64,000 bases of DNA from a virus. Shown piece by piece: positions 14,107 to 38,269 of this stretch. Position 1 is the stretch's first letter, and each line of letters begins with the position of its first letter. Under the pieces are notes generated by a model. It saw nothing but the letters and a program-made list of their open reading frames with translations, made no database searches and had not been told where the DNA came from. Made by a program: the position numbers and the translations under genes. Location of the stretch: IMG/VR virus record IMGVR_UViG_3300032217_000462, positions 1 to 64,000 of that record, one strand, 5' to 3'.

Positions 14107-14616
14107 TTAGTTAAGGGGGTTAGTGGGCCAAACTACTTGTTCAGTTGGAGTATTTTTGTTATACGTATTGGTTAAATCACGTAATTGTTGTTTGTAATTT
14201 AACAAATCTGTAAATTGTTCTGCTGATAATGTAGTAGTAATATTTCGTATAATTTCTTCTTGATGACGTTGTACAAGCCAATCTGTATCATATAATAACT
14301 GACCACGAGTCATTTCTAAAGTAATTACAGGCATTGCTGCTTGCGTTAGTTGTTCTAAAACTGATAACAAACGTTGTTTATTGTCTACAATCCATTTCAT
14401 TTCTGGCAATTCTTGGCCAACTACCATAGTAGGACCTTCACGTTCTACATGATAAATATTTCGATCAGGCTCGTATGCTAATAATCTAGTACTAGTATAA
14501 GGATATCCAGTTTCTGTAATAAATTTTGCGGAATCATCCCAGTAGTGTTCTTTGTTTTCAAATTTTATGTAAAAATGTGAATTATAAAAATCTAGACTAA
14601 CGTTATTGTTAATCAT
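14107..14616 (-). CDS. Tail-fiber assembly chaperone-like protein
   Basis: A 169-residue protein whose C-terminal half matches the pattern of phage tail-assembly chaperone-like (APC) proteins: LLYDTDWLVQRHQ, then YKQQLRDL, then a terminal VVWPTNP. The N-terminal half is a separate beta-rich region. The same C-terminal pattern occurs in the gene at 38472, so the fiber island is bracketed by two such genes. It follows the last adhesin gene after 3 bases, with AAGGA before the ATG, the usual fiber-then-chaperone order. It probably helps fold or mount fibers. Confidence 0.6.
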   Translation of the reverse strand: MINNNVSLDFYNSHFYIKFENKEHYWDDSAKFITETGYPYTSTRLLAYEPDRNIYHVEREGPTMVVGQELPEMKWIVDNKQRLLSVLEQLTQAAMPVITLEMTRGQLLYDTDWLVQRHQEEIIRNITTTLSAEQFTDLLNYKQQLRDLTNTYNKNTPTEQVVWPTNPLN

Positions 14617-14619
14617 TTG

Positions 14620-15750
14620 TTATCCTTTATATTGTATAAATGCCATACCTATTCTTTGAGGCGAATAAGTGTACGTACTAAGTCCACCACCAGTACTGTG
14701 AGAATGCGACCATCCATAGTTGCTATGATAGGCAGTAGGGCCTCCGGTATTAGCTGTTGGCACATAACTATTAGCATGTGAGTGCGATACGTATGCACCA
14801 CTAATACTAAGTGCGCTAGATGGGTTAGCTGTTGTAATAACATTCCACTGATTATCACTATAACCAATAATATATCCACCTAAATTTGTAGTACCATTTA
14901 AACCGTCGCATAGTTTCCAAGTATCTGGTAAACTAGCCAATGTTCCAACATACATAACTATCATATCTGTTGTTGGTATTGCACTAGCTGTTAACTTCCA
15001 TAGATTTACTAATTTACTAGTTATAGCTGTTTGTGAAAAACTAGCAGATCCACTATGAGTATGTGAACCACCATATCCCATACTATAATTACGATAGTAA
15101 GGTCCACTTGCTATTGTTTGATACGCACTTGAGCTTGATGCATGATAATGTCCATAATCGCTACTAATAGACAAACCAACTCCAAAATAATATCCACTGC
15201 CAGCAGTATACGTAGTATCATTGGCTCCTCGTAGATAATTACTACCGGTTTGTGAAAATGCCACAGAACCTGTCATAGCCGTTTGTTTTACTACTAATGA
15301 ATTTACTGGTAAATATCTAGTACTTGCAATAGCCCTTAGTAAAATTATATTCTGCTTATTTACCAGTGTGTCTTGAGTGGAGTAACTAGAGCCAGAATAA
15401 CTGTGATTATGTCCAGGGCTACCTGCGGATTGAGCAGTACTTCCACCTGTAGCACTTCTCCAGTTTTGAGTAACTGCACTACCAGTATGATAACCATCAC
15501 TAGAAGTGCTACCTGAGGCAATTACTCCACCAGCATTTGCTGGAGTAGTAACAGCTATCTCACCTTGAGTAGTAGCGCTATAAAGGTAATACCCGTCTGC
15601 TGTAGTATATCGTGTCCACGCATTTAATCCTGGGTCAGTACTTGATCCGTAGTATGGGACTACTGAATTTGCAGGAAATTTTAATGTTGGGGGAAAATCG
15701 ACTGCACTTGCAAAGCCAAGCTTTGAACCAGAAGAAAAAGATAATGGCAT
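14620..15750 (-). CDS. Tail fiber / adhesin with His-rich collar-type repeats
   Basis: A 376-residue protein that is probably a distal fiber or receptor-binding protein. It contains five His-rich loops (GHNHSYSG, YGHYHASS, SHTHSGSA, SHSHANSY, SHSHSTGG). Two halves each look like a tail-collar domain, in which paired His residues bind metal in a trimeric fiber; LCDGLNGTTNLGGYIIGY is typical collar sequence. The body is rich in Ser, Thr, Gly and Tyr. It ends PQRIGMAFIQYKG, as collar proteins often do. It is the last adhesin of the island, next to a chaperone-like gene. Confidence 0.72.
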   Translation of the reverse strand: MPLSFSSGSKLGFASAVDFPPTLKFPANSVVPYYGSSTDPGLNAWTRYTTADGYYLYSATTQGEIAVTTPANAGGVIASGSTSSDGYHTGSAVTQNWRSATGGSTAQSAGSPGHNHSYSGSSYSTQDTLVNKQNIILLRAIASTRYLPVNSLVVKQTAMTGSVAFSQTGSNYLRGANDTTYTAGSGYYFGVGLSISSDYGHYHASSSSAYQTIASGPYYRNYSMGYGGSHTHSGSASFSQTAITSKLVNLWKLTASAIPTTDMIVMYVGTLASLPDTWKLCDGLNGTTNLGGYIIGYSDNQWNVITTANPSSALSISGAYVSHSHANSYVPTANTGGPTAYHSNYGWSHSHSTGGGLSTYTYSPQRIGMAFIQYKG

Positions 15751-15759
15751 TTAACATCC

Positions 15760-16251
15760 TTATCCAAATTTAGTTTGAGAAACAAATAATTTCCAAGCAG
15801 GAGTACCAGTTGCACCAGTTTTAATAATAAACAAAACGTATAAATCAGTAGCAAACTGATTACCATATGAGTAAGGTATTCCTCCTTGATAAAGCGGAGT
15901 TATTGCTACACCATCTATTTGATACGCAGTAGGATAATAAGGTGTTGTACCGTTTTGAACAAATAAATTACCAATAATAGATTCACCAGTACTTAATAAA
16001 GAATCTAGTGTTTGAGTAGAACTTCCACGAGTATTTATGGTAAAATTTGCTGTAGTGTTAACATTATACCACAAAGTGGGCTGTGTGGCAACATCAAAAT
16101 TAACTGTGGTTGGGGGTGCGGTTGCTACAATTGTTACGTTTTCTTTTGTGGTTTTAACTGTTTTATTTGATAAAGTTTGGCTACCTGTTAAAGTAGCCAA
16201 ACTATTAAATAGTGCGGGTTGAATTGTAGGCTGAGTTACTAAAGTTGTCAT
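15760..16251 (-). CDS. Tail fiber-associated protein
   Basis: A 163-residue Thr/Asn-rich protein. Its start contains LATLTGSQTLSNKTV, a short motif common in phage fiber proteins (T-L-T-G-x-Q-T-L-x-N-K-T). The rest is predicted beta, without membrane segments. It has an AAGGA ribosome binding site. It lies among fiber genes and is probably a virion surface component. No receptor or enzymatic activity can be inferred. Confidence 0.6.
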   Translation of the reverse strand: MTTLVTQPTIQPALFNSLATLTGSQTLSNKTVKTTKENVTIVATAPPTTVNFDVATQPTLWYNVNTTANFTINTRGSSTQTLDSLLSTGESIIGNLFVQNGTTPYYPTAYQIDGVAITPLYQGGIPYSYGNQFATDLYVLFIIKTGATGTPAWKLFVSQTKFG

Positions 16252-16283
16252 ATTATTCCTTTAACCCGTACTTCCAAAAGTAC

Positions 16284-16424
16284 TTATACATTAGACTCAA
16301 CATAATCGTCACCTACTTGTAACGTGTTAGATTTCACCCATAACCCAGGCCAAGTTAAAATTCCAGGACCCCATTCAAATTCTTGAACTACTTTTCCGTT
16401 TTCAATTTTTACATAACGTTCCAT
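16284..16424 (-). CDS. 46-residue protein, unlisted small gene in the fiber island
   Basis: A short gene in the 175-base gap between fiber genes. It starts at ATG 16424, 2 bases after the stop of the 16427 gene, and ends at TAA 16284. It encodes MERYVKIENGKVVQEFEWGP followed by a Trp/Gly/Pro-rich end (LTWPGLWVKS). There is no signal peptide or membrane segment. Its aromatic, beta-like composition fits a small fiber or tail accessory. A 6-bp hairpin (16268-16283) follows the stop directly. Tight fit and composition support coding. Confidence 0.6.
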   Translation of the reverse strand: MERYVKIENGKVVQEFEWGPGILTWPGLWVKSNTLQVGDDYVESNV

Positions 16425-16426
16425 TA

Positions 16427-16735
16427 TTATCCCCAATAAAATTGTTGTGTGCTAGTACCGGTTGCGCTGGTAGTATCTTGCAAAATCAATGCTTTATTAT
16501 AAAGATTATTTGTTCCAACAACTTTGACCACTTTGGTAATAAACGGAGTGTTTAATAAAATTCCAGCTTCAGATTGAGTATTATCTGATAATATCATTGA
16601 GTTGGCGTACAAATTACCAGCAGCTATATACTTGGTTACTTTGTTAGTGTAGGCAGATACTCCAACAATAGAATCATTTGTAATTGTGTTACTGGAAATT
16701 ATAGTTGAATTGCTGCCAATTGATTGCAATGCCAT
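16427..16735 (-). CDS. Small tail-associated protein, unknown
   Basis: A 102-residue Ser/Thr/Asn-rich protein ending TSTQQFYWG. It shows two imperfect halves around AAGNLYANSMILSDNTQS and VGTNNLYNKALILQDTTS (pattern G-N-L-Y-x-x-x-x-I-L-x-D-x-T), so it is probably an internal duplication of a small beta module. No family is recognised. It starts 1 base before the stop of the 376-residue protein at 16737 and is probably translated with it. Position implies a virion fiber component. Confidence 0.6.
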   Translation of the reverse strand: MALQSIGSNSTIISSNTITNDSIVGVSAYTNKVTKYIAAGNLYANSMILSDNTQSEAGILLNTPFITKVVKVVGTNNLYNKALILQDTTSATGTSTQQFYWG

Positions 16736-16736
16736 A

Positions 16737-17867
16737 TTAGACCTGCTTTACTAAAATTGTGCTAGAAGTAGTGCCAGGAGTAGGTGTATTGCAAATAAGA
16801 TTGGTATATCGCTGTCCAGAAATATCTACTTCATCCAATGACTGCCATTGACTTCTGAAAACATAAATGTACGGCGCTTTAGTGGTCAAAGATCCACCAA
16901 TCCAGAATTGATTGCTACTATTTGATTGTACTTCTAGTCTAATGTCAGCCAACAGCAAACTTTGAGCTTTAGAAGAATCTCTGGCATAAAAGTTATTGCC
17001 CCAATAGTTGGAAGCAGTGCCAATTTGTGAGAGGCCTACAGGATTATTACTTGCAGAAAAAGTAGACGAAGCTATTCTTTGAGTTCTCATTCTGGTAGTA
17101 AGTCCCCACTGTGACTGAGTGTAAGCAGTACCAGTTTGAGCTGCAACTTGGTTGGAGTCAGCGGTTCCACCTCCGGCTACGTTCAATACTCTCATTACCG
17201 TGCCGTTTTCGTTGGTGTAAGCGGTAGCCACACCATTAGCATTGGTGCCTGTAAATACCCAGGAAGGATATCCATTGGCCACAGTGTTCCAGACATCGTC
17301 TCGAGTGTATTCCGATGCATACAAACAACTGTCAAAACTTAAACCTATCACGCCTGTTGTAATATGCACAAACAAATGATTTGCAGAAGCACTTATAATA
17401 ACCGTACAGCCGTTGCTAAAAGTGCTATTGTAAGCTGGGCAACTGTACCATTTGGAGCTACTTGACTGAGTTGTGGTTGGCGGGGTAACCAAGGCATTGG
17501 TACTGGTATTAGCTGTAGCATCCCAGTTTTCCATTGGAACCCATTGCCAGTGTTGATCAGTGCCGCCAGTAACATAAACTGGTGCTGCCCATATGTACTT
17601 AAATTTTGTTGCGTCATCTGAGTACGGTGCTTTTATTACCACCGGAGTAGAACCTGTAGAAATAGTGGTTCCAGCAGCGGCATCATGAACACTCCACCCT
17701 GGTGCCACAGTGGATATAATTTGTGAAGCACCTTGGTTAAAAACCGACGAGTCCAAAGACGATGTAGCTGTGACGGTTCCTGTGATTACCCCTATCACTG
17801 CATTAAACAAAGTTGCTGTGGTGGTAGTGCTCCACGTTTGAGCAGGGCATACTAATTTTGCGTACAT
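16737..17867 (-). CDS. Putative tail fiber / virion surface protein
   Basis: A 376-residue Ser/Thr/Asn/Trp-rich protein without signal peptide or membrane helix. Short clusters such as WVPMENWDA and KWYSCPAYN suggest a globular beta domain. It ends in a region (WQSLDEVDISGQRY) that has the style of minor virion proteins in large aquatic phages. I cannot name a family. It may be similar in organisation to the 454-residue protein at 22981, which also ends in a Tyr/Trp-rich beta module. It is probably surface-exposed; function unknown. Confidence 0.55.
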   Translation of the reverse strand: MYAKLVCPAQTWSTTTTATLFNAVIGVITGTVTATSSLDSSVFNQGASQIISTVAPGWSVHDAAAGTTISTGSTPVVIKAPYSDDATKFKYIWAAPVYVTGGTDQHWQWVPMENWDATANTSTNALVTPPTTTQSSSSKWYSCPAYNSTFSNGCTVIISASANHLFVHITTGVIGLSFDSCLYASEYTRDDVWNTVANGYPSWVFTGTNANGVATAYTNENGTVMRVLNVAGGGTADSNQVAAQTGTAYTQSQWGLTTRMRTQRIASSTFSASNNPVGLSQIGTASNYWGNNFYARDSSKAQSLLLADIRLEVQSNSSNQFWIGGSLTTKAPYIYVFRSQWQSLDEVDISGQRYTNLICNTPTPGTTSSTILVKQV

Positions 17868-17892
17868 AATAAAAATCCTTTAAATTAATCAA

Positions 17893-18318
17893 TTAAGAAC
17901 TAGTATAATCTAGTCTTACACTTATATCTGTTCCGGTACCTGACACAATATCTAAAGTTAGATAATCTGTATCTGCAATTAAACTTGCAGATAATGTAGT
18001 ACTTGCACTATATGCACTTGCCGCAATGGTAACATTAGCAATGTTTATGTTATTCTTTTTTAAACCAATTACTACATTTGATGTAGATGTTGACGATACC
18101 AAAGCCGTCATTTTAACCAATGTTATATTATTAGCAAAATATCTTTTTATTGTACCAGTTTGAGATGTATTAATACCAGGATAAAATCCTGTAATACTTT
18201 GAATAGTATTACCACCACTAGCACCGGTTGTGGTGCCTGTTCCACCTTTTTCAGCAGGCACAGCCCCATCGGTGGCTAACACCGATGATAATTTTGATAA
18301 GTTTCGTGCTTTACCCAT
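17893..18318 (-). CDS. Small fiber-type protein with shared N-terminal motif
   Basis: A 141-residue protein. Its first 20 residues (MGKARNLSKLSSVLATDGAV) match the leader shared with the genes at 18327, 19650 and 25540. This is followed by KGGTGTTT, a short motif common at the start of phage fiber proteins. The C-terminal 80 residues are a beta domain ending in TDYLTLDIVSGTGTDISVR. That end is paralogous to the end of the 25540 protein (TDYLTLDVAGSATFARDLYV). It is probably a small adhesin or capping protein. Confidence 0.62.
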   Translation of the reverse strand: MGKARNLSKLSSVLATDGAVPAEKGGTGTTTGASGGNTIQSITGFYPGINTSQTGTIKRYFANNITLVKMTALVSSTSTSNVVIGLKKNNINIANVTIAASAYSASTTLSASLIADTDYLTLDIVSGTGTDISVRLDYTSS

Positions 18319-18326
18319 TTTATTCC

Positions 18327-19640
18327 TTAAAAGGTAAGTGTACCGCTAGCAGTAAATTTATAAATACGATAGCCGCCTGTTGTTACAACTGTAGGAGAGC
18401 CTGTTGTTGAAGTTGCCAATGGAAAAGAATCGGGATATTTAAGTGCTACTATACCTGCTGTAGGAGAATTAGAAGCAGAAGCTGGTGCACCTCCTGTGCC
18501 CCAACTTGTGCCTATATTATTAAAATCTGCGGAATCCCAGTTACGACCGCCTCCAGTACCACCAGTACCATATCCACTGCCAGAATAGCCACCTCCTGAG
18601 CCACCTCCACCGCCACCGCCAGAACCAGTACCATTTCCGCCATTACCTGGGGCAACATAGTTTCCGCCAGAACCAGCTGATCCGCCTACAGAAGTGACTC
18701 CATCACCGCGAGCACCACCACTACCTTGACCGCCACTACTACCAGGTTGACCAGCATTACCTGTTGGAGCACCACCACTACCGCCACCATAAGCAGTTCT
18801 AGTATATCCAGTTGCTGAAACACTACTTTGAGCTCCTGAAGTAGTACCCACAGTAATTGTTAATACGGTTCCAGTATTAAAACTACCTGTATCGCTTACA
18901 GCACCACCGCTACCACCACCTCCACCACCATTGCTTGAACTAGGATAATAAGCGCCGCCGCCACTTCCACCTGCAGCTACTACTAAAAATGTAACTGGTG
19001 TAGGAGGTATAACTGTTAAGCTAAATGCTCGGTCTGTGTCTTGTAATTGAGCATCAGTTGCACGAATTGTAAAATTATAAGTTGTGTTACTAGCTGGACT
19101 AGGAGTTGTTCCTGATAATACTCCAGTTGAACTATTAAGGTTAATACCACTTGGCAAACTACCACTATAAACTGAATAAGTTACAGGAGCGTCGCCAGTT
19201 GCAGCAAGTGTGGTTGAAAAACTAACACTAGTATTAAAACTACCAAAACTACCTGCTGCAGTAGTCCACGCAGGTACTCCTGAGTATTGTAAACCAGGTA
19301 CTGCTAGGGCAGTGGTACCGTCTGTGTTAATTACATAAATAATATAACTTCCGGCAGCATTAGCAGGAGCTGTAAAAGTAAGTTGTGTTGAATTAACACG
19401 TGTTACTACACTTGATTGTATGTTATTTACTAATACTTTAACTCCAGCATTAAAATTAGTGCCATTTAGTGTAACTGTGTCACCACCAGCAGTATTAACA
19501 GCTGTGTCATCACCATTATATACCACTGAACTAATTGTTGGTAGAGTATTAACTAAACCAACTTGTACGGACGCTGTACCTAAAACTCCTTGAGAGCTAA
19601 TATTTTGTACTAGTTTAACTAGATTTTTTGCTTTACTCAT
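18327..19640 (-). CDS. Modular adhesin: anchor motif, IPT/TIG, Ig-like and glycine-rich domains
   Basis: A 437-residue protein with four modules. Residues 1-20 are the shared anchor motif (MSKAKNLVKLVQNISSQGVL). Residues 33-120 are an IPT/TIG-like domain (TLNGTNFNAGVKVLVNN). Residues 125-215 are a putative Ig domain (LPSGINLNSSTGVLSGTT). Residues 218-437 form a Gly/Ser-rich region with runs of six to eight glycines, ending YKFTASGTLTF. Glycine-rich C-termini of this type are known in phage adhesins such as S16 gp38, where polyglycine helices pack together. A receptor-binding role is likely. It is paralogous to the 19650 gene. Confidence 0.75.
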   Translation of the reverse strand: MSKAKNLVKLVQNISSQGVLGTASVQVGLVNTLPTISSVVYNGDDTAVNTAGGDTVTLNGTNFNAGVKVLVNNIQSSVVTRVNSTQLTFTAPANAAGSYIIYVINTDGTTALAVPGLQYSGVPAWTTAAGSFGSFNTSVSFSTTLAATGDAPVTYSVYSGSLPSGINLNSSTGVLSGTTPSPASNTTYNFTIRATDAQLQDTDRAFSLTVIPPTPVTFLVVAAGGSGGGAYYPSSSNGGGGGGSGGAVSDTGSFNTGTVLTITVGTTSGAQSSVSATGYTRTAYGGGSGGAPTGNAGQPGSSGGQGSGGARGDGVTSVGGSAGSGGNYVAPGNGGNGTGSGGGGGGGSGGGYSGSGYGTGGTGGGRNWDSADFNNIGTSWGTGGAPASASNSPTAGIVALKYPDSFPLATSTTGSPTVVTTGGYRIYKFTASGTLTF

Positions 19641-19649
19641 GAGTTTCCT

Positions 19650-21056
19650 TTAAAACGTAATTGAACCTGATCCAGTAAACTTATAGTACCTGTACCCGCC
19701 ACTTACTGTTACTGTGGGTGACCCTGTTGTTGCGTAAGCTGCGTCATAAGTATCTGCATAACGAATAACTACTACCCCTGCTCCACCACTTTGACTTGAA
19801 CCACCAACACCGCCACCACCATAACTACTGCTACCCGAACCGCTACCATTAGCACCATTACCACTACTGCCTCCACTTCCACCGCCACCGCCGCTAACAG
19901 TTCCTATACCCCAACTTGAGGCATCATAACCATTACCACCAGTTCCAGCAGATCCAAATGTACCAAAAACACTTCCATTGGGGTTATAAATAGTATAAAT
20001 AGAGGCATCACCACCACTACCACTATAACCACCGCCTCCGCCTCCAGCACTGGCTACGTTAAATTGATAAGCAGAACTTCCGCCACTTGTGTAACCACTA
20101 CCACCACCACGAGGGCTTGGAGAAGCTCCTTGATTGTTTGTACTAGCACCGCCACCACATCCGCCATTAGTAGCACTACTGCCAGTACCATAAGTACTAT
20201 CACCTCCGGCACCACCACCACCAGCTATAATAGAATTAAAGGTAGTATTTCCGCCATTAGCCCCGGCACTGCCAAAACCTATGGTAATTCCATATTGATT
20301 TCCAGGCGTAGGAGATAGTGTACCTGTTTTTACAGCACCACCTCCACCCCCACCACGTCCAGTACTAGTACCACCACCTGCGCCAACTAAGATATAGCTG
20401 GCTGTTGGCGTTGGATTTGTATATAATACAGTTAAACTAAATACACGATCTGTATCTTGATTTTGTGCATCACTAGAACGAATAGTAAAACTATAAGTAG
20501 TATCAGCACTAACTGTAGGAGTAGTGCCACTTAGCACGCCTGTTGAACTGTTAAGTGTTAATCCAGGTGGTAATGTGCCTGATAGTAAACTATAGGTAAT
20601 AGGAGCGTCACCTGTGGCAACAAGTGTAGTTGAAAAACTAATTGCTTTAGGAGAAATACCTAAACTACCTGCTGCAGTAGTCCAGGTCGGAAATGCTGAA
20701 TATTGCAATCCTGGAACTGCTAGTGCAGTTGATCCATCGGTATTTACAACATAAATAATATAGCTACCCGTAGCTTGTGCGGGTGCTGTAAATGTAATTT
20801 GTGTAGAATTAACAATGGTAACTACGCTTGGCTGAACTCCGTTAACAACAACTTTAGCACTGGTTTTAAAATTAGTGCCTGTTAGCGTAACTATATCACC
20901 GCCCGCAGTATTAACAGCTGTGTCATTATCAGGATAACTCACAGCAGTAATAGTAGGATAATTAACAATAGTACCCATTTGAATAGCATCAGAACTTAAA
21001 ACGCCTTCGGTGCTAACACTGCGTGACAGGCTAATTAAATTTGTTCTTTTACTCAT
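19650..21056 (-). CDS. Modular adhesin, paralogue of the 18327 gene
   Basis: A 468-residue protein with the same module order as its neighbour: anchor motif (MSKRTNLISLSRSVSTEGVL), IPT/TIG-like domain (TLTGTNFKTSAKVVVNG), Ig-like domain (LPPGLTLNSSTGVLSGTT) and a glycine-rich C-terminal half ending YKFTGSGSITF. I use the ATG at 21056, which has AGGA at good spacing; an ATG two codons upstream is too close to it. N-terminal modules are very similar to those at 18327 while the glycine-rich parts differ, the pattern expected after duplication followed by receptor-driven divergence. Confidence 0.75.
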   Translation of the reverse strand: MSKRTNLISLSRSVSTEGVLSSDAIQMGTIVNYPTITAVSYPDNDTAVNTAGGDIVTLTGTNFKTSAKVVVNGVQPSVVTIVNSTQITFTAPAQATGSYIIYVVNTDGSTALAVPGLQYSAFPTWTTAAGSLGISPKAISFSTTLVATGDAPITYSLLSGTLPPGLTLNSSTGVLSGTTPTVSADTTYSFTIRSSDAQNQDTDRVFSLTVLYTNPTPTASYILVGAGGGTSTGRGGGGGGAVKTGTLSPTPGNQYGITIGFGSAGANGGNTTFNSIIAGGGGAGGDSTYGTGSSATNGGCGGGASTNNQGASPSPRGGGSGYTSGGSSAYQFNVASAGGGGGGYSGSGGDASIYTIYNPNGSVFGTFGSAGTGGNGYDASSWGIGTVSGGGGGSGGSSGNGANGSGSGSSSYGGGGVGGSSQSGGAGVVVIRYADTYDAAYATTGSPTVTVSGGYRYYKFTGSGSITF

Positions 21057-21072
21057 TTGCATTTCCTATAAA

Positions 21073-22971: not shown

Positions 22972-22980
22972 AATAGATCC

Positions 22981-24345: not shown

Positions 24346-24346
24346 A

Positions 24347-25192: not shown

Positions 25193-25195
25193 ATC

Positions 25196-25525
25196 TTATC
25201 CTTGTGAAGATTGTTCTTCTTGTTCAGAAGGAGTAGGTGTTTCTGGCTCAGGAATCGGCTCTGGTGCTGGATATGGTACTAAATCCATAAGCATTTCAAA
25301 ATCTTTGTGATTTACATCGTCAGTATTGCTATGATTATAGATCACTGTGATACCATACGAGCCAATATCTGCTACCATGGTGGCCACTAAGTGTGAGCCT
25401 GCAGCTTGTGCAAATTTTCCAGTAATATAAGCAGCTTTATGCTCACCTTCTGGTACTGTGCCTAGATATTTATACACAAAACCCATTTGTTGACTAAATA
25501 TCTTTTGAAAAAATTCTTTATCCAT
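25196..25525 (-). CDS. Small protein with acidic Pro-rich tail, unknown
   Basis: A 109-residue protein. Residues 1-80 look globular (mixed, with FAQAAGSHLVATMVADIG). Residues 83-109 form a disordered Pro/Glu/Thr-rich tail (PAPEPIPEPETPTPSEQEEQ). No family is recognised. It is located within the fiber island, 3 bases upstream of the 24347 gene in transcription order, so it may be an assembly factor or minor structural protein. The pattern of a small domain plus Pro-rich tail also occurs in the unrelated gene at 3828. Confidence 0.55.
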   Translation of the reverse strand: MDKEFFQKIFSQQMGFVYKYLGTVPEGEHKAAYITGKFAQAAGSHLVATMVADIGSYGITVIYNHSNTDDVNHKDFEMLMDLVPYPAPEPIPEPETPTPSEQEEQSSQG

Positions 25526-25539
25526 ACTACCTCCAGTAG

Positions 25540-28932: not shown

Positions 28933-28953
28933 ATTATTTATTCTTTCTTATTT

Positions 28954-31900
28954 TTACACACCCATTGCTACGCTCATTGCAATAGAGAAATTACGCACAC
29001 TGGTTAAACCAAGTGATCCAACACTAGATAGTATTGTAATAGTATCTCCAGCAGTTGCTGCCTGAGTTAATGTAACTGTAGTACCATTTACAGCAGTATA
29101 ATTACTACTCTTTTGTAAACTACCATTAACATATACTATTACCGATCCTGTACTATAGCCATTGGATACAGTAAATACTGTTTGACCTGCTGTTGCTGTA
29201 AACTCTTCCGAGGTTGACATTGGTCCTGTTGGACCTATGGTACCTTGCGGCCCTGTGGGTCCTGTGGGTCCGGTTATACCGTCACCCTTCATTTCACGAA
29301 CTACTAGTTCTTGTCCTACTCCAGGGGCTATTACAAAAGTTAGTGTTGTTCCACTTACTGAGTAATCAAGTACTGGTTGTAATAAAGCACCGTTAGCTAC
29401 TACTAAAATATTATGTGTGCCATAACCACTGTTAATAGTAAATGCTGTTGTAGTGCCGTCGCCAGTAAACGTTTGCGTTTCAATTGTAAACGGATAACCT
29501 ATTGCACCTGATGGTCCTGTTGGTCCTTGAGCACCTGTGGGTCCATTTGCAGGGCCTGTTGGTCCTACAGCACCTGTTGTTCCAGTGGGTCCTGTGGGGC
29601 CGATTGCACCGTTTGTACCTGCAGTACCTTGTGCACCTGTTGGACCTGTTGGACCACCAGCTGGTCCCGTTGGTCCTTGCGGTCCTGTGGGTCCGTCACC
29701 TTTCATCTCACGAACAACAAGTTCAACTTGATCTTCAGGAGCTGTTACAAAAGTTAGTGTAGTTCCGCTAACAGAATAATCTGCAACAGGTGATAAAATA
29801 ACACCGTTGGCTACAACAATTACGCTATCAGTAGTATAACCACTATTAATAGTAAATGCAGTAGTAGTTCCGTTACCAGTAAAATTTTGTGTTTCTACAA
29901 TAAAGGGTGAACCAATTCCACTAGCACCTGTTGGGCCTGTAGGTCCAGTGGCTCCATTTGAACCTATAGTACCATTAGTACCTTGTGGGCCTGTTGGGCC
30001 TGCTACAGTTGATGCAGCACCTGTAGGACCAGTAACACCTTGAATACCTTGTGATCCTGTAGGACCTGTAATACCTTGAATACCTTGAGATCCTTGAGAT
30101 CCTTGAGATCCTGTAGGACCTGTAATACCTTGCGGACCTATAGGACCTGCTACAGTAGATGCAGCACCTGTAGGACCTGTAGCACCTGTAATACCTTGAA
30201 TACCCTGAGAACCTGTAGGGCCTGTAGCACCTGTAGGGCCTGCTACTGTAGATGCAGCACCTTGAGAACCTGTTGGTCCAGTACTACCCGTTGGGCCTTG
30301 AATACCTTGCGCACCGCTAAGATCACTGGTATAAGTATAACTTGTTCCATTCCAAATATATAATCTAGAATTTTCTGCATTTTCAACATTGCCAGTATCA
30401 ATAATTGCAAACTGTCCTGCTGTAATACCTGTAGGTGAAGTATCAGCTGTTAAAGCCGCAACACTCAAATAAGTTTTAGCAATTGTAAAACCAAGACCAT
30501 TAGCACCTGTTGGACCTGTTGGACCGGTATTACCTTGAGTACCTGCGTTGCCTTGAGAGCCTGTAGGTCCAGTAACACCTTGAATACCTTGTGTACCTTG
30601 AATACCCTGAGAACCTGTAGGGCCTGTAGCACCTGTAGGGCCTGTAATGCCTTGAATACCTTGAGATCCTGTAGGACCTGTAGCTCCATCTACTCCTATT
30701 GTACCTGCAGCACCTATAGGTCCTTGAATACCTTGTGATCCTGTAGGTCCTTGAATACCTTGTGATCCTGTAGGTCCTTGAATACCTTGAGCACCTGTTG
30801 GTCCCGCCACAGTAGAAGCAGCACCTGTGGGGCCTTGAATACCTTGAGAACCTGTAGCTCCTGTAGGACCTTGTGATCCTGTAGGACCATCTCCAAGTAA
30901 TTCTCTAACAACAATTTCATCACCGCTATCTGGAGCAATAATAAAAGTTAAAGAACTTCCGCTAACAGTATAATCGGTAGTTGGTTTTAATAATACGCCG
31001 TTTAAAGCTACTAGTAAACTATCAACAGTATATCCACTATCAATAGCAAATGTTGTTGTGGTTCCGTTGCCAGTAAAGTTTTGTGTTGTTACAATAAAAG
31101 GTGAGCCAATTCCAGAAGGACCTGTAGGTCCAACTACTCCTTGAACACCTTGAATACCTTGAGAACCTGTTGGCCCTGGTACTGTAGATGCTGCCCCTTG
31201 AGCACCAGTAGGACCTGTAACGCCTTGAATACCTTGTGATCCTGTAGGACCAGTAGGACCTGTAACACCTTGAATACCTTGTGATCCTGTAGGACCAGTA
31301 ACACCTTGAATACCTTGTGATCCTGTAGGACCTGTAACGCCTTGAATACCTTGTGATCCTGTAGGACCAGTAACACCTTGAATACCTTGTATACCTTGAG
31401 ATCCCGTAGGACCTGTAGCACCTTGTAAGCCTTGTGTTCCTTGTGGACCTGTAGGCCCTACTATTTGCCCTACGTCTAAATATAAACTGCCAGTCCAGGT
31501 ATATAAATTACCATCAGCTGTAACAATATATGCGTCACCAATACTAGGAGTAGGTGTACCTGGTAATTGTGCTATTGTGGCTACTTCACCTTTAATATTA
31601 ACTGATGTACCAGGATTACCTTGAGGCCCTGTAGGACCTGTAATACCTTGAGCTCCTGTAGGACCTGCTATTGTTGAAGCAGCGCCTGTTGGGCCTGTAG
31701 GACCTGTAACACCTTGAATACCTTGTGATCCTGTAGGACCTGTAACACCTTGAATACCTTGTGAGCCTTGTGAGCCTTGAGCACCTGTAGGACCTGTAGG
31801 ACCTGTAACACCTTGAATACCTTGTGTTCCCTGAGCTCCTGTAGGACCTGTAATACCTTGAGATCCTGTAGGACCTGTAGCACCTTGGATACCTTGAATA

Positions 31901-34900
31901 CCTTGGATACCTTGAATACCTTGGATACCTTGAGCTCCTGTTGGGCCCATAATACCTTGATCACCTGTTGGGCCTGTAGGACCTGTAACGCCTTGAATAC
32001 CTTGTGATCCTGTAGGACCAGTAACACCTTGAATACCTTGTGAGCCTGTTGGTCCATCATTACCCTGCATACCCGTAGGACCTTGTAGCCCTGTAGCACC
32101 TGTAGGACCTGTAGGTCCTGTAACACCTTGAGCACCTGTTGATCCTGTAGAACCTTGAATACCTTGTGATCCTGTAGGTCCTTGAATACCTTGTGACCCT
32201 GTAGGTCCTTGAATACCTTGTGATCCTGTAGGTCCTTGAATACCTTGAATACCTTGAATACCTTGATCACCTGTTGGTCCTGTAGAACCTTGAGCACCTG
32301 TTGGTCCTGCTGATCCTGTGGGTCCAGCTACAGTAGATGCAGCACCTGTTGGTCCTGTGACACCTTGTATACCTTGTGAACCTGTAGGGCCTTGAATACC
32401 TTGAATACCTTGCGAGCCTGTATCGCCAGTATTACCTTGTGCTCCTGTTGGACCTGTTGATCCTGTTGGGCCCGCATTACCTTGTACACCCTGTTGTCCT
32501 GTTGGACCTTGAGCACCTGTTGGGCCTGCAACAGTGGATTGTGCTCCTGTAGGACCTGTAACTCCAGTGGATCCTGTTGATCCTGTAGGTCCTTGAATAC
32601 CCTGTGATCCTGTGGGTCCTTGAATACCTTGAGAGCCTGTAGGCCCTTGTAATCCAGTAGCTCCACTTAAATCAGTTGTATAGTTATAAACACTACCATT
32701 CCATAAATATAGTCTAGCATTTTCAGGATCGCTTACATTTCCTGTATCAATTAGTGCAAATTGACCTGCTATAATATTTGTTGGAGAAGTATCTGCTATT
32801 AATTGAGCTACACTTGTATATGTTTTAGCAATAACAAATCCAAGGCCTGTTGCACCTGTTGGGCCTGTAACACCTTGAACACCTGTTGGGCCTGTGGGAC
32901 CTGCATTACCTTGCGGACCTGTAACACCTTGTGGACCAGTATCGCCCATTGGACCTTGTGGACCTTGTGGACCTTGCATTCCGTCTGCGCCAGCAGGACC
33001 TGTTGGACCTGTAGCACCTTGTGAACCTGTGGGTCCAGGAACGGTTGAGTCTGCTCCTGTTGGACCAAAATCTCCTTGTGGACCTGTTGGGCCAGTTGGA
33101 CCAGTTGCTCCATATCCAATACTTTGACCAGCAACAACCAAGAATCCATTCTCTGTAGAAAGAGGTGTTCCACCCAGATCAATTGTATTAGCAGCAAAAT
33201 AACCTGTTTTCCAACGCTTTGTAGGAGAACCGATATTAAAAGTTTGATCTACTGATGGTAGTAAGTTGCTGTTTATGTTTGTAAGATCAACTGCTGGGCC
33301 TGTTGGGCCAGTTGCTCCAGTTCCTACTAAATGTCCTTTTAGTTCTTTAATTACAACATTTAGTCCATTTGGTGGTGCAGTTACAAATATTACTTGAGTT
33401 CCAGATACAGTATAATCGGTAGTAACTTCTTGTAATAAGCCACCTACTGTAACTAATATACTTTCTGCTGTAAGCCCACTACCTATAGTGAAGGCCGAAG
33501 TACTACCGTCACAAGTATACGTACGAGTATATGCATTAAATGCTGTACCTCCAGGATTACCATTAATCCACTGAGTACCATTCCACAATAGTGCCTGTCC
33601 GTTTGCAGGACCTGATATAACCACATTAGATAAATCTTCTAAAACTGTAGTTTTATTAACCCATTTTTGAGTTGCGCTATCGTAAGCTAATACTTGCTTA
33701 TTAACAGCACTAGTGATTGTTATATCACTTAATCCTGTTAAAGTACTAATTGTAGATTTATTAACCCATTTTTGGGTTGCAGTATCGTAGACAAGTGCTT
33801 GATTATTAGTAGGGCTAGTAATAGTTACATCACTTAAACCTGTAATAGCACTAACAGGTGTTTTATTAACCCACTTACTAGCAACTGAGTCCCAAGATAA
33901 AACTTGGTTATTAGCAACACTGGTAATAGTTACATTACCTAAACTATCTATACTAGTAGTCTTATTAATCCATTTAGAAGCAGTAGTATCCCATACAAGA
34001 GCTTGGTTGTTAGTAACACTAGTAATAGTTACATTGCCTAAGCTATCTATGCTAGTAGTTCTATTAACCCATTTTTGAGTAGCATTGTCCCATACTAGTG
34101 CTTGTTTATCCGCAATGTTTGTTACATTTACGTTATTTAAATCATACAAACTACTAACTGGTGATTTATTTACCCATTTACTAGTTGCTGTATCCCACGA
34201 TAATGTTTGATTGTTAGTTGGGCTAGTAACTGTAACATTACTTAAATCATATAAACTACTAACAACAGATTTATTAATCCATTTTTGCGTAGCAGTATCC
34301 CATGATAATGCTTGGTTATTAGTAACACTAGTAATAGTTACATTGCCTAAATCATTAACACTAGTAGTTTTATTAATCCATTTTGAAGTTGCTGTATCGT
34401 AAGTTAATACTTGTTTATCAATAGTACTGGTTAAAGTTACGTCACTTAATCCTGTTAAAGTACTAACTGTAGATCTATTAACCCATTTCTGAGTTGCAGT
34501 ATCATATACAAGTGCTTGATTATTTGTAGGACTAGTTAATGTTACATTGGTTAAATCGCTAAGAGAACTTGTAAAAGTTCTATTAACCCATTTTTGAGTT
34601 GCAGAGTCATAAGATAATAATTGATTATTTGCAGGACTTACTAAATTTACATCTGTTAAACCAGTAATAGTAGTTGCAACAGTTCTATTAACCCATTTAC
34701 TAGCCGCGGAATCCCATGATAAAACTTGATTATTAGCAACACTGGTAATTGTTACATTACCTAAATCATTCACAGTAGTAGTTTTATTAACCCATTTCTG
34801 TGCTGTCGAATCCCAGGTTAGTTGTTGATTATTGGCGACACTAGTAATAGTTACATTACTTAAATCATCGACTTTAGTATCCGCTAAATTTTTAAAATAC

Positions 34901-35034
34901 TTTACTTGTCCACTGGATGCTTTAAAATATAGTCTTCCATCAGCTGTATTAATGGCTAACTCTCCGGGCTGAAGATTACCGGCCAGTGGGACTCCCCCAG
35001 TTGTCGATGAATTTTTAATCTTAATTATTGCCAT
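28954..35034 (-). CDS. Collagen-like long tail fiber
   Basis: A 2026-residue fiber. Residues ~55-490 contain 13 tandem repeats of about 33 residues (core [13 protein letters not shown], then [11 protein letters not shown]). The rest is Gly-X-Y collagen-like sequence dominated by GPTG and GIQG units, expected to form a trimeric triple helix. The collagen is interrupted by globular modules: five copies of a ~60-residue module (core [18 protein letters not shown]) and two of another ([16 protein letters not shown]), plus a related third ([15 protein letters not shown]). The C-terminal end is the fifth copy of the first module. The SD (AGGG, 35041-35044 on this strand) can be sequestered in a hairpin. 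Confidence 0.85.
29220..33325 (-). repeat. Collagen-like Gly-X-Y repeat DNA within the long fiber
   Basis: Tandem and dispersed 9- to 30-base repeats encode [10 protein letters not shown]-type units; on the + strand they appear as recurring CCTTGAATACCTTG and GATCCTGTAGGACC blocks. Globular modules interrupt the array near 29285-29490, 29700-29905, 30315-30500, 30890-31105, 31465-31610 and 32655-32840. High nucleotide identity between copies makes this a likely hotspot for length change by recombination and a probable site of assembly collapse. Confidence 0.9.
33560..34875 (-). repeat. 13 tandem ~100-base repeats in the long fiber N-terminal shaft
   Basis: Encodes 13 copies of a ~33-residue unit with conserved pattern L-x-x-V-x-I-T-S-x(3)-N-Q-x-L-x-(W/Y)-D-(S/T)-A-x-x-K-W-(V/I)-N-(K/R). 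The last copy is degenerate and leads into the collagen region. Copies are similar but not identical. One related unit (LKGLSDVDTS...DKW) is also found in the small protein at 37058. Confidence 0.85.
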
Positions 35035-35040
35035 ACTCAG

Positions 35041-35077
35041 CCCTAAAAGAATTAGGGAAACTTATACAAGTTTCCCT
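35041..35077 (-). promoter_or_regulatory. Two mutually exclusive hairpins before the collagen-like fiber gene
   Basis: Hairpin 1 pairs 35054-35063 with 35068-35077 (10 bp, ATAC/GTAT loop). Hairpin 2 pairs 35041-35046 with 35052-35057 (6 bp, CCCTAA/TTAGGG). They share 35054-35057, so only one can form. In the leftward transcript hairpin 2 contains the AGGG that serves as ribosome binding site for the fiber ATG at 35034, 6 bases away. Hairpin 1 would free it. Translation control is an inference; no U-tract makes this a good terminator. Confidence 0.5.
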
Positions 35078-35081
35078 TTTA

Positions 35082-37046
35082 TTAATACGTTCCGCCGTCC
35101 ACAGTAGCTAGTGTAACATACCCTGTAGATGCATTTACTCCGAAACTTTCTGAATCGAAATAAGCTAAACCTTTTGTGGTTGTAGAAGCATTAGGTATTG
35201 TTTGATTTGCAACTGCAGTAACTAAACCTTTGGCATTAACTGTAATACGTGGAACAGTTAATGTATCGCCATAGCTACCTACATTGGTATTTACAGTTGC
35301 TAAGGTAAGTGCTGCCGATTTATTAGATGTTCCATCTACGCTGGTAAACGATGCAGTTGCATCTCCAGTTAAATTTAAGTTACGTGCTGTAAACCATTTT
35401 GTAGCAGTATCAGCGTTACCAACAAGATCACCATAAACTTGTGATACATTTAATGGTTTATTAAAATTCCAACGATCATCGCTAGATGAATAGTTAAGAG
35501 TTGCTGGAATAGTTGGGCCATGAACTGTAATACCACCACCATTTGCATCACCAGCACTAGTAGCGTCTTTGGCTAATTCAATATTCAAATCACCGATTGA
35601 AACAGTTGTAGAATTAATTGTTGTAACTGTACCTAATACACTCAGATCACCAGTAATAGTAGCATTACCATTTACAGTAATATCTGAAACTGTAGCTGAT
35701 CCTGCATCTAAAGCACCAGCAATTGTAATTGTTCCTGCGGCAACATTTCCTGTAACTGCCAAAGCTCCAAGAGTTCCGCTACCAGACATTGCCACAGTAA
35801 TTGTATTAGTAGCATCATCAATACTTGTAGTAACACCGCCACTACCAACAATTCGCAAATTATCAGTTAATAAGTTTAATGTTCCAGTTGTTGAAGCATT
35901 ATCGCCACGGAAACTTAGTGTAGTTGCAACATTAGCAGTTGTAATTCCAGTTACTAAACCTTTTGCGTTGACAGTAACTACAGGAATTGCTGTGGCTGAA
36001 CCAAAAGCACCAGGAACTTTACCAGTACTACCATCTAATATAGTTGCTAAAGTAAGCGTTGCTGTTTTATTTATTGAACCATCAATACTAATTGCAGCGG
36101 TACTTGCGTCACCGCTGAATGTTAGATTAATTGGAGAAGCCCATTTACTAGCAGTGTCTGCATTGCCAGTAACATTACCAGTTAAATTACCTGTAACATT
36201 ACCTGTAACATTACCAGTATGAACACCTGCACTATTACCGGTTAAATTACCAGTAACATTACCAGTTACATTTCCAGTTACGCTACCAGTAAATGTAGCA
36301 TTAGTACCATCAGTGCCGTTATCTAAAATTTTGCTAGTACCGTTGGAAGCAAAAATATCGCCAGTTACATTACCTACAACATTACCATTAACGTTACCAG
36401 TTAAATTACCTGTAACTCCGCCAGTAAATGTAGCATTAGTACCGTTAGTACCATTTTCAATAATTTTTGTAATTCCATCAGCAGCATAAATGTCGCCATA
36501 AACATTACCTGTAACATTACCTGTAAGATTACCTACAACATTACCTGTAATACCGCCACTAACACTACCGTAAAATACTGCATTAGTACCATCAGTACCG
36601 TTTTCTAAAATCTTGCTAGTACCATCGGCGGCATAAATATCGCCCACAACATTACCAGTATGAATACCAGCACTATTACCAGTTAAATTACCAATAACAT
36701 TTCCAGTATGAATACCTGTACTGTTACCAGTTAAATTACCAGTAACATTACCCATAATATTTAAGTAAGCAGTATTAAGTGTGTCGCGTTTTACTAATGT
36801 ACCTGCAGTGCCTACATCTGTTGCCGCATCAATAATATCAGTAAAATACTTACCGCCAATAACAATTGGTGCACCTGATGCAGACTGTAAGTCACTGTTG
36901 GCTCCCATACCGCCAACAAATAACCTGCCACCCATATTTGAAATAGAACCAGTACCAAATGTATAAGCCATTTCACCTGTGTTCAGTAATTGTGGTGCAA
37001 TGGAAGTACTACTTCTTTTAATCTTTATCGTTGATTTATCAGCCAT
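35082..37046 (-). CDS. Tail fiber with GNVTGNLTGN repeats
   Basis: A 654-residue fiber protein. The N-terminus (STIKIKRSSTSIAPQLLNTG) resembles phage fiber attachment regions. Residues ~95-290 hold decapeptide-like repeats of GNVTGNLTGN with inserted GDIYAADGTSKILENGTDGT units, expected to form a beta-helix or beta-roll shaft. Residues 290-654 are Thr/Ala-rich with paired copies of a head module (VPRITVNAKGLVTAV and IPVVTVNAKGLVTGI) and the block TINSTTVSIGDLNIELAK, which is frequent in aquatic phage fibers. It directly precedes the collagen-like fiber gene in the transcript. Confidence 0.72.
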   Translation of the reverse strand: MADKSTIKIKRSSTSIAPQLLNTGEMAYTFGTGSISNMGGRLFVGGMGANSDLQSASGAPIVIGGKYFTDIIDAATDVGTAGTLVKRDTLNTAYLNIMGNVTGNLTGNSTGIHTGNVIGNLTGNSAGIHTGNVVGDIYAADGTSKILENGTDGTNAVFYGSVSGGITGNVVGNLTGNVTGNVYGDIYAADGITKIIENGTNGTNATFTGGVTGNLTGNVNGNVVGNVTGDIFASNGTSKILDNGTDGTNATFTGSVTGNVTGNVTGNLTGNSAGVHTGNVTGNVTGNLTGNVTGNADTASKWASPINLTFSGDASTAAISIDGSINKTATLTLATILDGSTGKVPGAFGSATAIPVVTVNAKGLVTGITTANVATTLSFRGDNASTTGTLNLLTDNLRIVGSGGVTTSIDDATNTITVAMSGSGTLGALAVTGNVAAGTITIAGALDAGSATVSDITVNGNATITGDLSVLGTVTTINSTTVSIGDLNIELAKDATSAGDANGGGITVHGPTIPATLNYSSSDDRWNFNKPLNVSQVYGDLVGNADTATKWFTARNLNLTGDATASFTSVDGTSNKSAALTLATVNTNVGSYGDTLTVPRITVNAKGLVTAVANQTIPNASTTTKGLAYFDSESFGVNASTGYVTLATVDGGTY

Positions 37047-37057
37047 TTTTTCTTCCT

Positions 37058-37321
37058 TTAAAAGAATCCGCCTTCCATCGTTTGCTGTTCAAGCAACTTC
37101 GATGAGGTCCATTTATCTGTTCCAGAATTATATACTAATAAGCTTCCTGAAGCTAAAACGCTAGTATCTACATCTGATAGCCCTTTAAGTGTGGTTTGTG
37201 TAGGGCCTATCATGCCGCCTACAACTACTCGTGTATCACTTTGTGACGAAACAACTGTTGGTTCCGTTACCTCAAGTACAACCGCATTATTAACTTCGGT
37301 TATAATTATTTCTGTTGTCAT
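37058..37321 (-). CDS. Small fiber-island protein carrying one shaft-repeat unit
   Basis: An 87-residue protein. Residues 1-40 are Val/Thr-rich beta sequence. Residues 45-78 (LKGLSDVDTSVLASGSLLVY, then NSGTDKW) are a single copy of the same unit repeated 13 times in the 2026-residue fiber. It might therefore nucleate, adapt or cap that shaft; this is inference from sequence similarity only. The start overlaps the preceding gene's stop as ATGA, so translation is probably coupled. Confidence 0.62.
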   Translation of the reverse strand: MTTEIIITEVNNAVVLEVTEPTVVSSQSDTRVVVGGMIGPTQTTLKGLSDVDTSVLASGSLLVYNSGTDKWTSSKLLEQQTMEGGFF

Positions 37322-37914
37322 CTAGTAACCTCTTTAATCAATGTAATACCACCACTTAAGAATGGATATACAAGTCCTTGATTATCTGTTAATTCACAAG
37401 AATATACTGCTGCGTCAAAATTAAAAGTAGCAGTAGTAACAGCCGATATATTAAAAGAAATTGTATAGTTAATTGCATCTATACTAATACCGCCATTAGC
37501 GGAAGTTAACTCATGAATTACTGTTGTAGAGTCTATAGACTCTCTGATCTGCATTTGTGCAGTATAGCCTGCTAGAGGTATAGGACTGTTCCATTCAATA
37601 ATACCGCCAGTTGTATACGTTCCATAATCTGATGAATTTATCTGGTTTAGGGTTACGCTATTAGAAGTTTTTGAAGTTACTAGATAATAGTCAGTAGTTG
37701 ATGCGGTATTAATATCTTTCATACCATTAACACCAGTTACTCTGATTCTCCAGTTTAATGGAATAGTATGGGCACTAGCTGTAGTAATTACACAGGGAGC
37801 CGCTTTAGTAATACCTGAAATCTGAGCATATTGTTTAGTTTCTGACTCCCAGCGAAGAGTCTCTCGAAAAGTACTACCTTGATAAATTCTGTAACTAATT
37901 CGTGCTGGTTCCAT
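37318..37914 (-). CDS. Putative tail/baseplate protein with Ig-like fold
   Basis: A 198-residue beta-rich protein. The start (SYRIYQGSTFRETLRWESE) and the block LAGYTAQMQIRES fit a small phage protein type that typically lies next to fiber genes; between them is an inserted 65-residue beta domain (CVITTASAHTIPLNWRIRVT). No enzyme motif or membrane segment is seen. Together with its overlapping neighbour at 37058 it leads the fiber transcript, so it may be the attachment point for the fibers. Confidence 0.55.
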   Translation of the reverse strand: MEPARISYRIYQGSTFRETLRWESETKQYAQISGITKAAPCVITTASAHTIPLNWRIRVTGVNGMKDINTASTTDYYLVTSKTSNSVTLNQINSSDYGTYTTGGIIEWNSPIPLAGYTAQMQIRESIDSTTVIHELTSANGGISIDAINYTISFNISAVTTATFNFDAAVYSCELTDNQGLVYPFLSGGITLIKEVTR

Positions 37915-37918
37915 TATA

Positions 37919-38269
37919 TCACCTTACTTTCTTTGCTGCTGCAAGCGTAGCCGATATTCTAAACTTATTAACTTCTTCAGTTAGTGCAACAACTTCTGTT
38001 TGTAGCTGCTGATTTTCAATGCACAACTGTGCTAGTTGCGCATTTAATATAATCATTTCTTGTTGCAAGCGATTTAATTCGGTTGCTAGTAAGCCATTTT
38101 GTTCGCTCATACGTTCTAGTTCTGTATGCATTAAAGTGATAATGCTAGTTTCCGCATGAGTACTTTTCCAGTCTTTTAACAGTTTCTGTATTCCAACTGA
38201 GAAAGCAACAACTGCTAACGCAACTAGTGAAACTGTCTGAATCAGGCTGTGATCATTAATCTCCACCAT
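37919..38269 (-). CDS. Membrane-anchored coiled-coil protein, unknown
   Basis: A 116-residue protein with one N-terminal membrane helix (IQTVSLVALAVVAFSVGIQ, about 9-28) and a long coiled coil from about 45 to 100 (ELERMSEQNGLLATELNRLQ, with further Leu heptads). No lipobox or cleavage site is apparent. It is the first gene after the strong promoter at 38393 and has a long leader of about 115 bases and a good GGAG ribosome binding site. The architecture resembles i-spanins and membrane tethers; its place ahead of the fiber island is unexplained. Confidence 0.62.
   Translation of the reverse strand: MVEINDHSLIQTVSLVALAVVAFSVGIQKLLKDWKSTHAETSIITLMHTELERMSEQNGLLATELNRLQQEMIILNAQLAQLCIENQQLQTEVVALTEEVNKFRISATLAAAKKVR

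Follow-up and report, generated by a model that had tools for sequence, protein, structure and literature searches.

In the 64,000-nucleotide stretch analysed here (the window; part of the 67,416-bp IMG/VR virus record IMGVR_UViG_3300032217_000462), positions 14107–38269 hold an island of tail-fibre and adhesin-type genes that is followed, 10 bp past its 3' edge and on the same strand, by a glycosyltransferase gene (13050–14096) lying outside the island as it was drawn in a sequence-only reading of the same DNA. Our analysis of this region and its relatives indicated that it is probably a host-recognition cluster of exchangeable modules, with a border enzyme that glycosylates the phage's own collagen-like fibre. 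The enzyme gene occurred together with Gly-X-Thr collagen tracts in several phage lineages, and the interior of the island was mostly replaced or rearranged between conserved borders. The features central to this reading are as follows.

13050–14096, minus strand: GT2-TPR glycosyltransferase (PF00535 then TPR; phrog_13126), the 3' border gene.
28954–35034, minus strand: collagen-like fibre of 2026 residues (PF01391, E-value 1.4e-104, 16 stretches).
37318–37914, minus strand: border gene (phrog_1084), 61–73% in 10 of 10 relatives.
38421–38393, minus strand: sigma-70-type promoter, TTGACA-17-TATAAT with an extended -10 (12/12 match).

The fibre carries 256 collagen triplets in long runs and is threonine-rich at the Y position; among the 272 collagen triplets of the window, which include 16 from gene 38825–43834, 124 have threonine at Y and 13 have it at X. 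In the structure model of the enzyme (predicted local distance difference test, pLDDT, 92.9; predicted template modelling score, pTM, 0.78), roughly the first 165 residues are GT-A-like and residues 172–347 form helical repeats, and a DLDE motif (residues 83–86) was unchanged in 36 sequences. The nearest solved folds were the peptide S-glycosyltransferases SunS and ThuS (Z 20–22, 17–20% identity), and the TPR domain of OGT aligned to the repeat part with Z 16–18, a level that many of the listed helical repeats also reached. Scanning IMG/VR returned 380 stretches with relatives of the enzyme, the best 80 of which were 71–87% identical. In many of the relatives' loci the gene neighbourhood differed from that in the window, and the genes directly upstream were mostly fibre-like or chaperone-like, as read by eye from their N-termini.

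In the lineage of the window, eight contigs with the enzyme gene carried 110–416 collagen triplets and three contigs without it carried none. This association may represent a single change on the tree, and other lineages were therefore examined using anchors other than the enzyme or the collagen gene. Lineage B was anchored on L158:11049–12659, where 24 of 80 loci had at least 9 kb upstream and the 56 shorter ones were dropped. The 13 loci with the gene contained 17–76 Gly-X-Thr triplets and the 11 loci without it contained 0–5. At a cut of 10 Gly-X-Thr triplets, which was picked after the counts had been seen, tracts were present in 13/13 loci with the gene and 0/11 without (p 4e-7), cuts of 1 and 5 gave p values of 2e-4 and 4e-5, and the initial cut, at 20 triplets irrespective of type, gave 11/13 and 3/11 (p 0.011), all as Fisher values that take related loci as independent. 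On the anchor tree each trait changed six times, and five independent pairs across supported branches were all concordant, for which the sign test alone gives p 0.0625, the minimum for five pairs. Among 19 gene families found in 3–21 of these loci, the enzyme alone was associated with the tracts (p 4e-7), and the next-ranked family (p 0.08) was a different GT2 in three loci without Gly-X-Thr tracts.

Lineage D, anchored on L166:2322–2807, had 21 of 80 loci of sufficient length (59 under 9 kb were dropped), with tracts in 20/20 loci with the gene and 0/1 without; counting every locus that holds the gene, tracts were present in 34/34. The anchor of lineage D weakly matches the same PHROG as gene 37318–37914, so that lineage D and the window lineage are partly non-independent. 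When loci were selected by the gene itself, tracts were found in 22/22 of those outside the window lineage with at least 9.4 kb upstream, some of which are also in B or D. Inside the window lineage they lay within 10 kb upstream in 6/10, and two of the four loci scoring zero are contigs of G004 and G006, whose tracts lie farther upstream.

Three loci, L337, L342 and L345, were considered as exceptions in which collagen occurs without the enzyme and were rejected, as their repeats are Gly-X-Ser without threonine at Y. They form one clade and encode Gly-X-Ser fibres (L337:3035–9508 in the first), and in them a different GT2 directly precedes the anchor. An FkbM-type methyltransferase was seen in L337 and L342 and not in L345.

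Outside these lineages, three of the 69 phage records with an enzyme relative were inspected. The closest relative in annotated phage records (45%) belonged to Actinomycetia phage DSL-LC01, whose four upstream genes include two collagen genes rich in Gly-X-Thr, and MT838491, an unannotated 5-kb phage record with a 42% relative, had a short tract upstream. Of 79 bacterial loci collected with the family profile, 41 had 10 or more Gly-X-Thr triplets no farther than 8 kb away (14/26 for full-length relatives of at least 35% and 27/53 for the others, fractions that stand without an independent background rate), and in the latter group the tract lay within 0.63 kb of the gene in 26 of 27. In a clostridial example, a GT2-TPR gene (L394) that is 27% identical to the window enzyme over nearly its full length has a Gly-X-Thr collagen as the next gene. 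A plasmid search with an enzyme relative gave three records, the best at 46% (Peribacillus). A locus that we read as prophage-like in a cultured strain, Quisquiliibacterium transsilvanicum DSM 29781 (L369:4275–9074), has a collagen-like gene with 82 Gly-X-Thr and an enzyme 66% identical, and may offer a laboratory model.

It is important to note that several observations weigh against glycosylation of the fibre by this enzyme, in addition to the possibly single change in the window lineage and, in lineage B, the weaker first cut, the choice of the later cut, the relatedness of loci and the limit of the sign test. The gene is about 15 kb from the collagen fibre in the window and has no obvious ribosome-binding site (14097–14116), unlike most island genes, an absence that would be consistent with an enzyme made at a low level alongside structural proteins. 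A terminator-like hairpin at 35054–35077, in the gap between two island genes, may split the transcript. The family is labelled as a beta-1,4-glycosyltransferase by PHROG and in phage annotation. Pseudomonas phage PaBG, the third of the inspected records, has a 34% relative and no tract in the 25 kb viewed, and 38 of the 79 bacterial relatives had no tract within 8 kb. Finally, tract-first scans of viral sequence, which returned short stretches (176 of 197 listed loci with a real tract, 21 dropped), found the enzyme at 150 bits or more in 16/110 listed stretches of the GPT type and in 0/66 GPA-type controls. Gly-X-Thr tracts thus often occur without the enzyme nearby, and the reverse link, from tract to enzyme, was weak.

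The second part of the evidence came from ten related contigs that were mapped by anchoring on gene 37318–37914. The left border genes were present in 10/10 relatives, the endolysin gene 11754–12368 was seen in 9/10 with the tenth contig stopping short of it, and the glycosyltransferase formed the 3' border in 7/10 at 84–87%. In the interior, the four genes of 16284–18318 were unmatched in all ten relatives, and gene 26032–28932 matched in one. The adjacent paralogues 18327–19640 and 19650–21062 matched in six relatives, mostly over their N-terminal halves (52–70%), and one relative's protein (G001_08) matched them across the last ~42 residues only. Eight further close contigs, many of them one-sided, had the hub at 83–98%, the border at 88–95% (one at 70%), fibres mostly at 55–68% and the glycosyltransferase at 84–87%. 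Turnover was incomplete, with seven interior genes retained in the contig of L003 (44–74%) and four in another. Comparison of module order and C-terminal diversity among relatives, proposed in the sequence-only reading, bore out the expected pattern: conserved borders around a mostly replaced or rearranged interior, and paralogues that match mainly N-terminally. An assembly artefact was rejected because 10 contigs share these border genes. The island is a hypervariable and modular host-recognition locus of an already-known kind, and a clear case of a recombination-driven one outside T4-like phages.

Some of the related islands carried genes of other types. The island of contig G002 (L089:15210–16986) encodes a heme oxygenase (PF01126) and a ferredoxin-dependent bilin reductase (PF05996) together with a 2-oxoglutarate-Fe(II) oxygenase, placing bilin-making genes inside a tail-fibre island; these Pfam matches are for G002 only, and bilin-type genes were recognized by N-terminus in contigs G003, G005, G015, G017 and G019. 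The G005 island also has a carbamoyltransferase and a cupin/sugar-isomerase-like gene (L095:650–3487, L096:18916–19541), with neighbours that resemble sugar or lipopolysaccharide (LPS) enzymes by eye.

The remaining features of the island and its surroundings are listed below in the direction of transcription.

38472–38822, minus strand: tail-assembly-chaperone-like gene (PF16778, Phage_tail_APC, 42.3 bits, cut-off 26.6; phrog_4912, tail fiber assembly).
38431–38459, minus strand: terminator-like hairpin of 12 pairs with a T-rich tail, directly before the promoter at 38421–38393.
37919–38269, minus strand: border gene, membrane and coiled-coil type by sequence (coiled-coil matches weak), 51–94% in 10 of 10 relatives.
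37058–37321, minus strand: small border gene (phrog_13853), 38–89% in 10 of 10 relatives.
35082–37046, minus strand: repetitive fibre-type protein of 654 residues (PHROG tail-fibre and unknown-function matches), matched fully or partly in 10 of 10 relatives over 11–100% of its length.
26032–28932, minus strand: structural protein of 966 residues (phrog_5838, E-value 2.7e-247; 47.6% to Synechococcus phage S-CAM1).
25540–26013, minus strand: small tagged protein (N-terminal tag).
25196–25525, minus strand: 109-residue protein, no family above cut-off.
24347–25192, minus strand: 281-residue protein of the variable interior, without family match.
22981–24345, minus strand: 454-residue protein of the variable interior, without family match.
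21073–22971, minus strand: glycine-rich protein of 632 residues (PF21722, Gly_rich_2).
19650–21062, minus strand: tagged protein with TIG, He_PIG and Gly_rich_2 domains.
18327–19640, minus strand: tagged paralogue with TIG and He_PIG, C-terminus glycine-rich by eye only.
17893–18318, minus strand: small tagged protein, matched in 0 of 10 relatives and at 47% and 38% in two of the eight further contigs.
16737–17867, minus strand: 376-residue protein without family, 0 of 10 relatives.
16427–16735, minus strand: 102-residue protein, no family above cut-off, 0 of 10 relatives.
16284–16424, minus strand: 46-residue open reading frame (ORF), 0 of 10 relatives.
15760–16251, minus strand: semi-constant island gene (phrog_5906), 45–57% in 7 of 10 relatives.
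14620–15750, minus strand: tail-type protein of 376 residues (phrog_5795, tail protein), 50% in 1 of 10 relatives.
14107–14616, minus strand: tail-fibre-chaperone-like gene (PF16778 at 23.7 bits, under the cut-off of 26.6; phrog_8716, phrog_4912).
12368–13050, minus strand: two overlapping small genes, a spanin-like pair by sequence only.
11754–12368, minus strand: GH19-like endolysin (PF00182 at 20.0 bits, under the cut-off of 25.5), 75–96% in 9 of 10 relatives.

The interval 14107–38269 contained 19 non-nested same-strand ORFs of at least 87 residues in addition to the 46-residue ORF, in good agreement with the count of about 18 genes in the sequence-only reading. Its collagen-like shaft was recovered as the PF01391 fibre, and its shared N-terminal modules were found as an N-terminus of about 25 residues common to four proteins, two of which also share TIG and He_PIG. 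Three glycine-rich adhesins had been proposed, of which 19650–21062 and 21073–22971 have a Gly_rich_2 domain and 18327–19640 was glycine-rich by eye only. The two flanking chaperone-like genes do both match Phage_tail_APC, with 14107–14616 falling under the cut-off and 38472–38822 lying outside the interval, upstream of the promoter. Part of the island departs from the adhesin type, as gene 37919–38269 resembles a membrane/coiled-coil protein. The 966-residue protein has its counterpart in a virion protein of T4-like cyanophages, which the window phage is not, and this sharing indicates that fibre-region genes cross between unlike phages.

The shared N-terminus (the tag) often ends in KGGTG and precedes unlike C-termini in the four window proteins (17893–21062 and 25540–26013). 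A tag profile seeded from these genomes, with the four window proteins among the seeds, gave 30 matches in 19 other records, some contigs possibly being counted twice, and 0–4 per relative; tblastn with a 35-residue composite of the tag found no match. The tag may serve as a docking or chaperone signal. The half comprising the tag, TIG and He_PIG had relatives at 30–48% among the tail-fibre genes of several phages, Pelagibacter phages included, and the two paralogues share 73% DNA identity across 530 bp.

Upstream of the island the order is the chaperone-like gene 38472–38822, the hairpin at 38459–38431 and then the promoter at 38421–38393. Among nine testable relatives the promoter was a 12/12 match in seven, an 11/12 match in one and absent in one, and the 12/12 sites sit 152–153 bp ahead of the same gene as in the window. 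Promoter-like matches overall were not above shuffled sequence (55 versus 57.0, standard deviation 7.3), and the case therefore depends on this single perfect site, on where it lies and on how well it is conserved. With the internal hairpin at 35054–35077 and an 11/12 promoter-like match within a gene (16091–16063), control by a single promoter may be less than strict. Of the proposed one-promoter arrangement, the perfect and conserved site was borne out. Island expression would be late-type and mainly driven from this single promoter. The same-strand gene run continues past 14107 through the glycosyltransferase, the spanin-like pair and the GH19-like gene, with only weak terminator-like matches ahead of 8115–8078. 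Farther along, the next 12/12 promoter (9240–9212) stands ahead of a PhoH-like gene (8483–9169, read by eye), and a strong two-way terminator of 17 pairs lies at 8078–8115.

The window phage is probably a large tailed phage of the siphovirus type, judging from a portal, a head protein with protease matches, tail chaperones, a lambda-J-like hub and large fibres. A megablast search of phage records with the island DNA gave one 41-bp match. Among annotated hub proteins the closest, at 33.5% identity over 72% of the query, was that of Curvibacter phage P26059A, described as a freshwater siphovirus of a Comamonadaceae strain (PMC5964084). P26059A has one annotated tail fibre after the hub and a fibre region unlike that of the window, and a glycosyltransferase is annotated nowhere in the 43 kb of it that were viewed.

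The sequence-only reading had interpreted the island as a multi-receptor array, in which many adhesins on one virion give a broad host range. Such an array is compatible with a host-recognition cluster bearing a glycosylated fibre, and the joint encoding of several tagged or glycine-rich proteins behind one promoter is in its favour, but the number of tagged proteins varied from 0 to 4 among relatives (by the profile seeded from these genomes), and we regard it as plausible, though less likely than not. P26059A, the nearest isolated hub relative, infected 1/12 strains (PMC5964084), which would also speak against an array; its fibre region differs from that of the window, and this result therefore says little.

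Alternatively, the glycosyltransferase may alter the host surface (LPS or O-antigen), blocking superinfection or rebinding to debris, and merely sit in the cluster. This interpretation has been published for glycosyltransferases of the pelagimyophage cluster (PMC7029224) and is one of the readings given for Nanopelagicales phages (PMC10202952), and the beta-1,4-glycosyltransferase label of the family agrees with it. It leaves unexplained, however, why the gene tracks Gly-X-Thr through five supported switches when no other of the 19 families does, and both the TPR domain and the closest folds point to a substrate that is a peptide or protein. The gene is also probably late, given its place with structural and lysis-type genes, and we consider a host-surface role unlikely.

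Both genes could also travel as one mobile cassette without any functional link, as both lie in a recombining locus and are gained and lost together. In lineage B, however, kilobases of DNA with differing gene content separate tract and gene, the families in between are unassociated with the tracts, and the diverged bacterial relatives (the <35% group) again often neighbour Gly-X-Thr collagen, within 0.63 kb as given above. Unlinked co-travel is thus quite improbable.

The host range had further been suggested to be switchable. Neither a reverse transcriptase nor long near-perfect inverted repeats, the signatures of retroelement-driven or invertible loci, were found in the 67-kb record, which is a fragment; the longest inverted pair was 42 nt at 71%, and 13 of 23 pairs involve collagen repeats. 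Switching is therefore unsupported, although a distant element could still lie beyond the fragment. The adjacent paralogues, at 73% DNA identity across 530 bp, could recombine, but with the inverted repeats short, imperfect and mostly collagen-repeat matches and no reverse transcriptase in the fragment, diversification of adhesins by a phase-variable or retroelement-driven switch is most improbable.

For a host-recognition cluster with a fibre-glycosylating border enzyme, the following model can be proposed. The constant border genes would help to build and attach fibres, and the interior would act as a store of fibre and adhesin modules that recombination swaps among related phages, their products being incorporated into virions and binding receptors. 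Specificity would then shift over evolutionary time and not through a built-in switch. The TPR part of the enzyme would hold the protein substrate and the glycosyltransferase part would add a sugar, most likely N-acetylglucosamine (GlcNAc) by analogy with SgtA and BclA3 of C. difficile, onto Y-position threonines of the Gly-X-Thr tracts in fibre 28954–35034. This sugar may stiffen or shield the long fibre shaft, an idea that comes from glycosylated threonine in collagens.

More tentatively, and with somewhat less than even confidence, we suggest that aquatic tailed phages carry fibre-glycosylation modules matched to repeat chemistry, a mobile GT2-TPR with Gly-X-Thr and a different GT2 with Gly-X-Ser, where the latter is represented by three loci of one clade with the FkbM-type methyltransferase in two of three. 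The threonine sugar would take the place of hydroxyproline in keeping a long triple-helical fibre stable or shielded, and the same enzyme family would serve bacterial collagen-like surface proteins. If the fibre glycosylation proposed for the window phage is true, a glycosyltransferase family that is filed as a moron or as a modifier of DNA or host surface would have its place in virion assembly, and the long collagen-like fibres of phages would be glycoproteins. This would also bear on fibre stability without hydroxyproline and on why the enzyme stays 71–87% identical (best 80 of 380 loci) while the surrounding fibres differ.

With regard to known systems, the pelagimyophage host recognition cluster (HRC) holds tail fibres and glycosyltransferases (PMC7029224), and Nanopelagicales phages have an island of 5 kb that includes two collagen-like proteins and a portion of a tail fibre (PMC10202952). 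For the Nanopelagicales phages E7 and F5, glycosyltransferases are reported in addition to two collagen-like proteins (PMC10202952). The window island resembles the HRCs of pelagimyophages and cyanomyophages and metaviromic islands as described there, being large and non-syntenic in a structural region between conserved genes, and like the HRC it combines tail fibres with glycosyltransferase. In contrast, the HRCs in those descriptions are found in T4-like phages, between VrlC and gp14, and the window island belongs to a lambda-J-hub lineage, probably of siphoviruses, where, unlike in the described HRCs, a single enzyme family is linked with collagen-threonine tracts. Because the island follows a lambda-J-like hub and no T4-type neighbours were found among the scanned proteins, we describe it as HRC-like and not as a member of the HRCs in the strict sense.

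SunS and ThuS, the nearest folds, act on small peptide bacteriocins. Their sugar is cysteine-linked, whereas the window enzyme is proposed to act on threonine. Glycosyltransferases in such phages have been read as DNA protection or host-surface change (PMC10202952 and PMC7029224), and searches of the open-access literature, which leave subscription papers outside their scope, listed no paper on a phage enzyme that glycosylates a collagen fibre. Mycobacteriophage enzymes do glycosylate virion proteins (as cited in PMC12619734), with sites at capsid and tail-tube C-termini, compared with the collagen-like fibre proposed here. The closest parallel is SgtA of C. difficile, a protein of 358 residues with a GT-A domain and four TPR repeats that attaches beta-O-GlcNAc to threonine residues within the GPT collagen region of BclA3, its gene being immediately upstream of bclA3 (PMC7157674). 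SgtA has demonstrated activity on a spore-coat collagen encoded by the adjacent gene, whereas the window enzyme is predicted to act on a tail fibre encoded about 15 kb away. The two enzymes are alike in having about 350 residues, a GT-A part followed by TPR and a Gly-X-Thr collagen partner, which for the window enzyme is on the same strand in an operon-like run and which was found again in lineages B and D.

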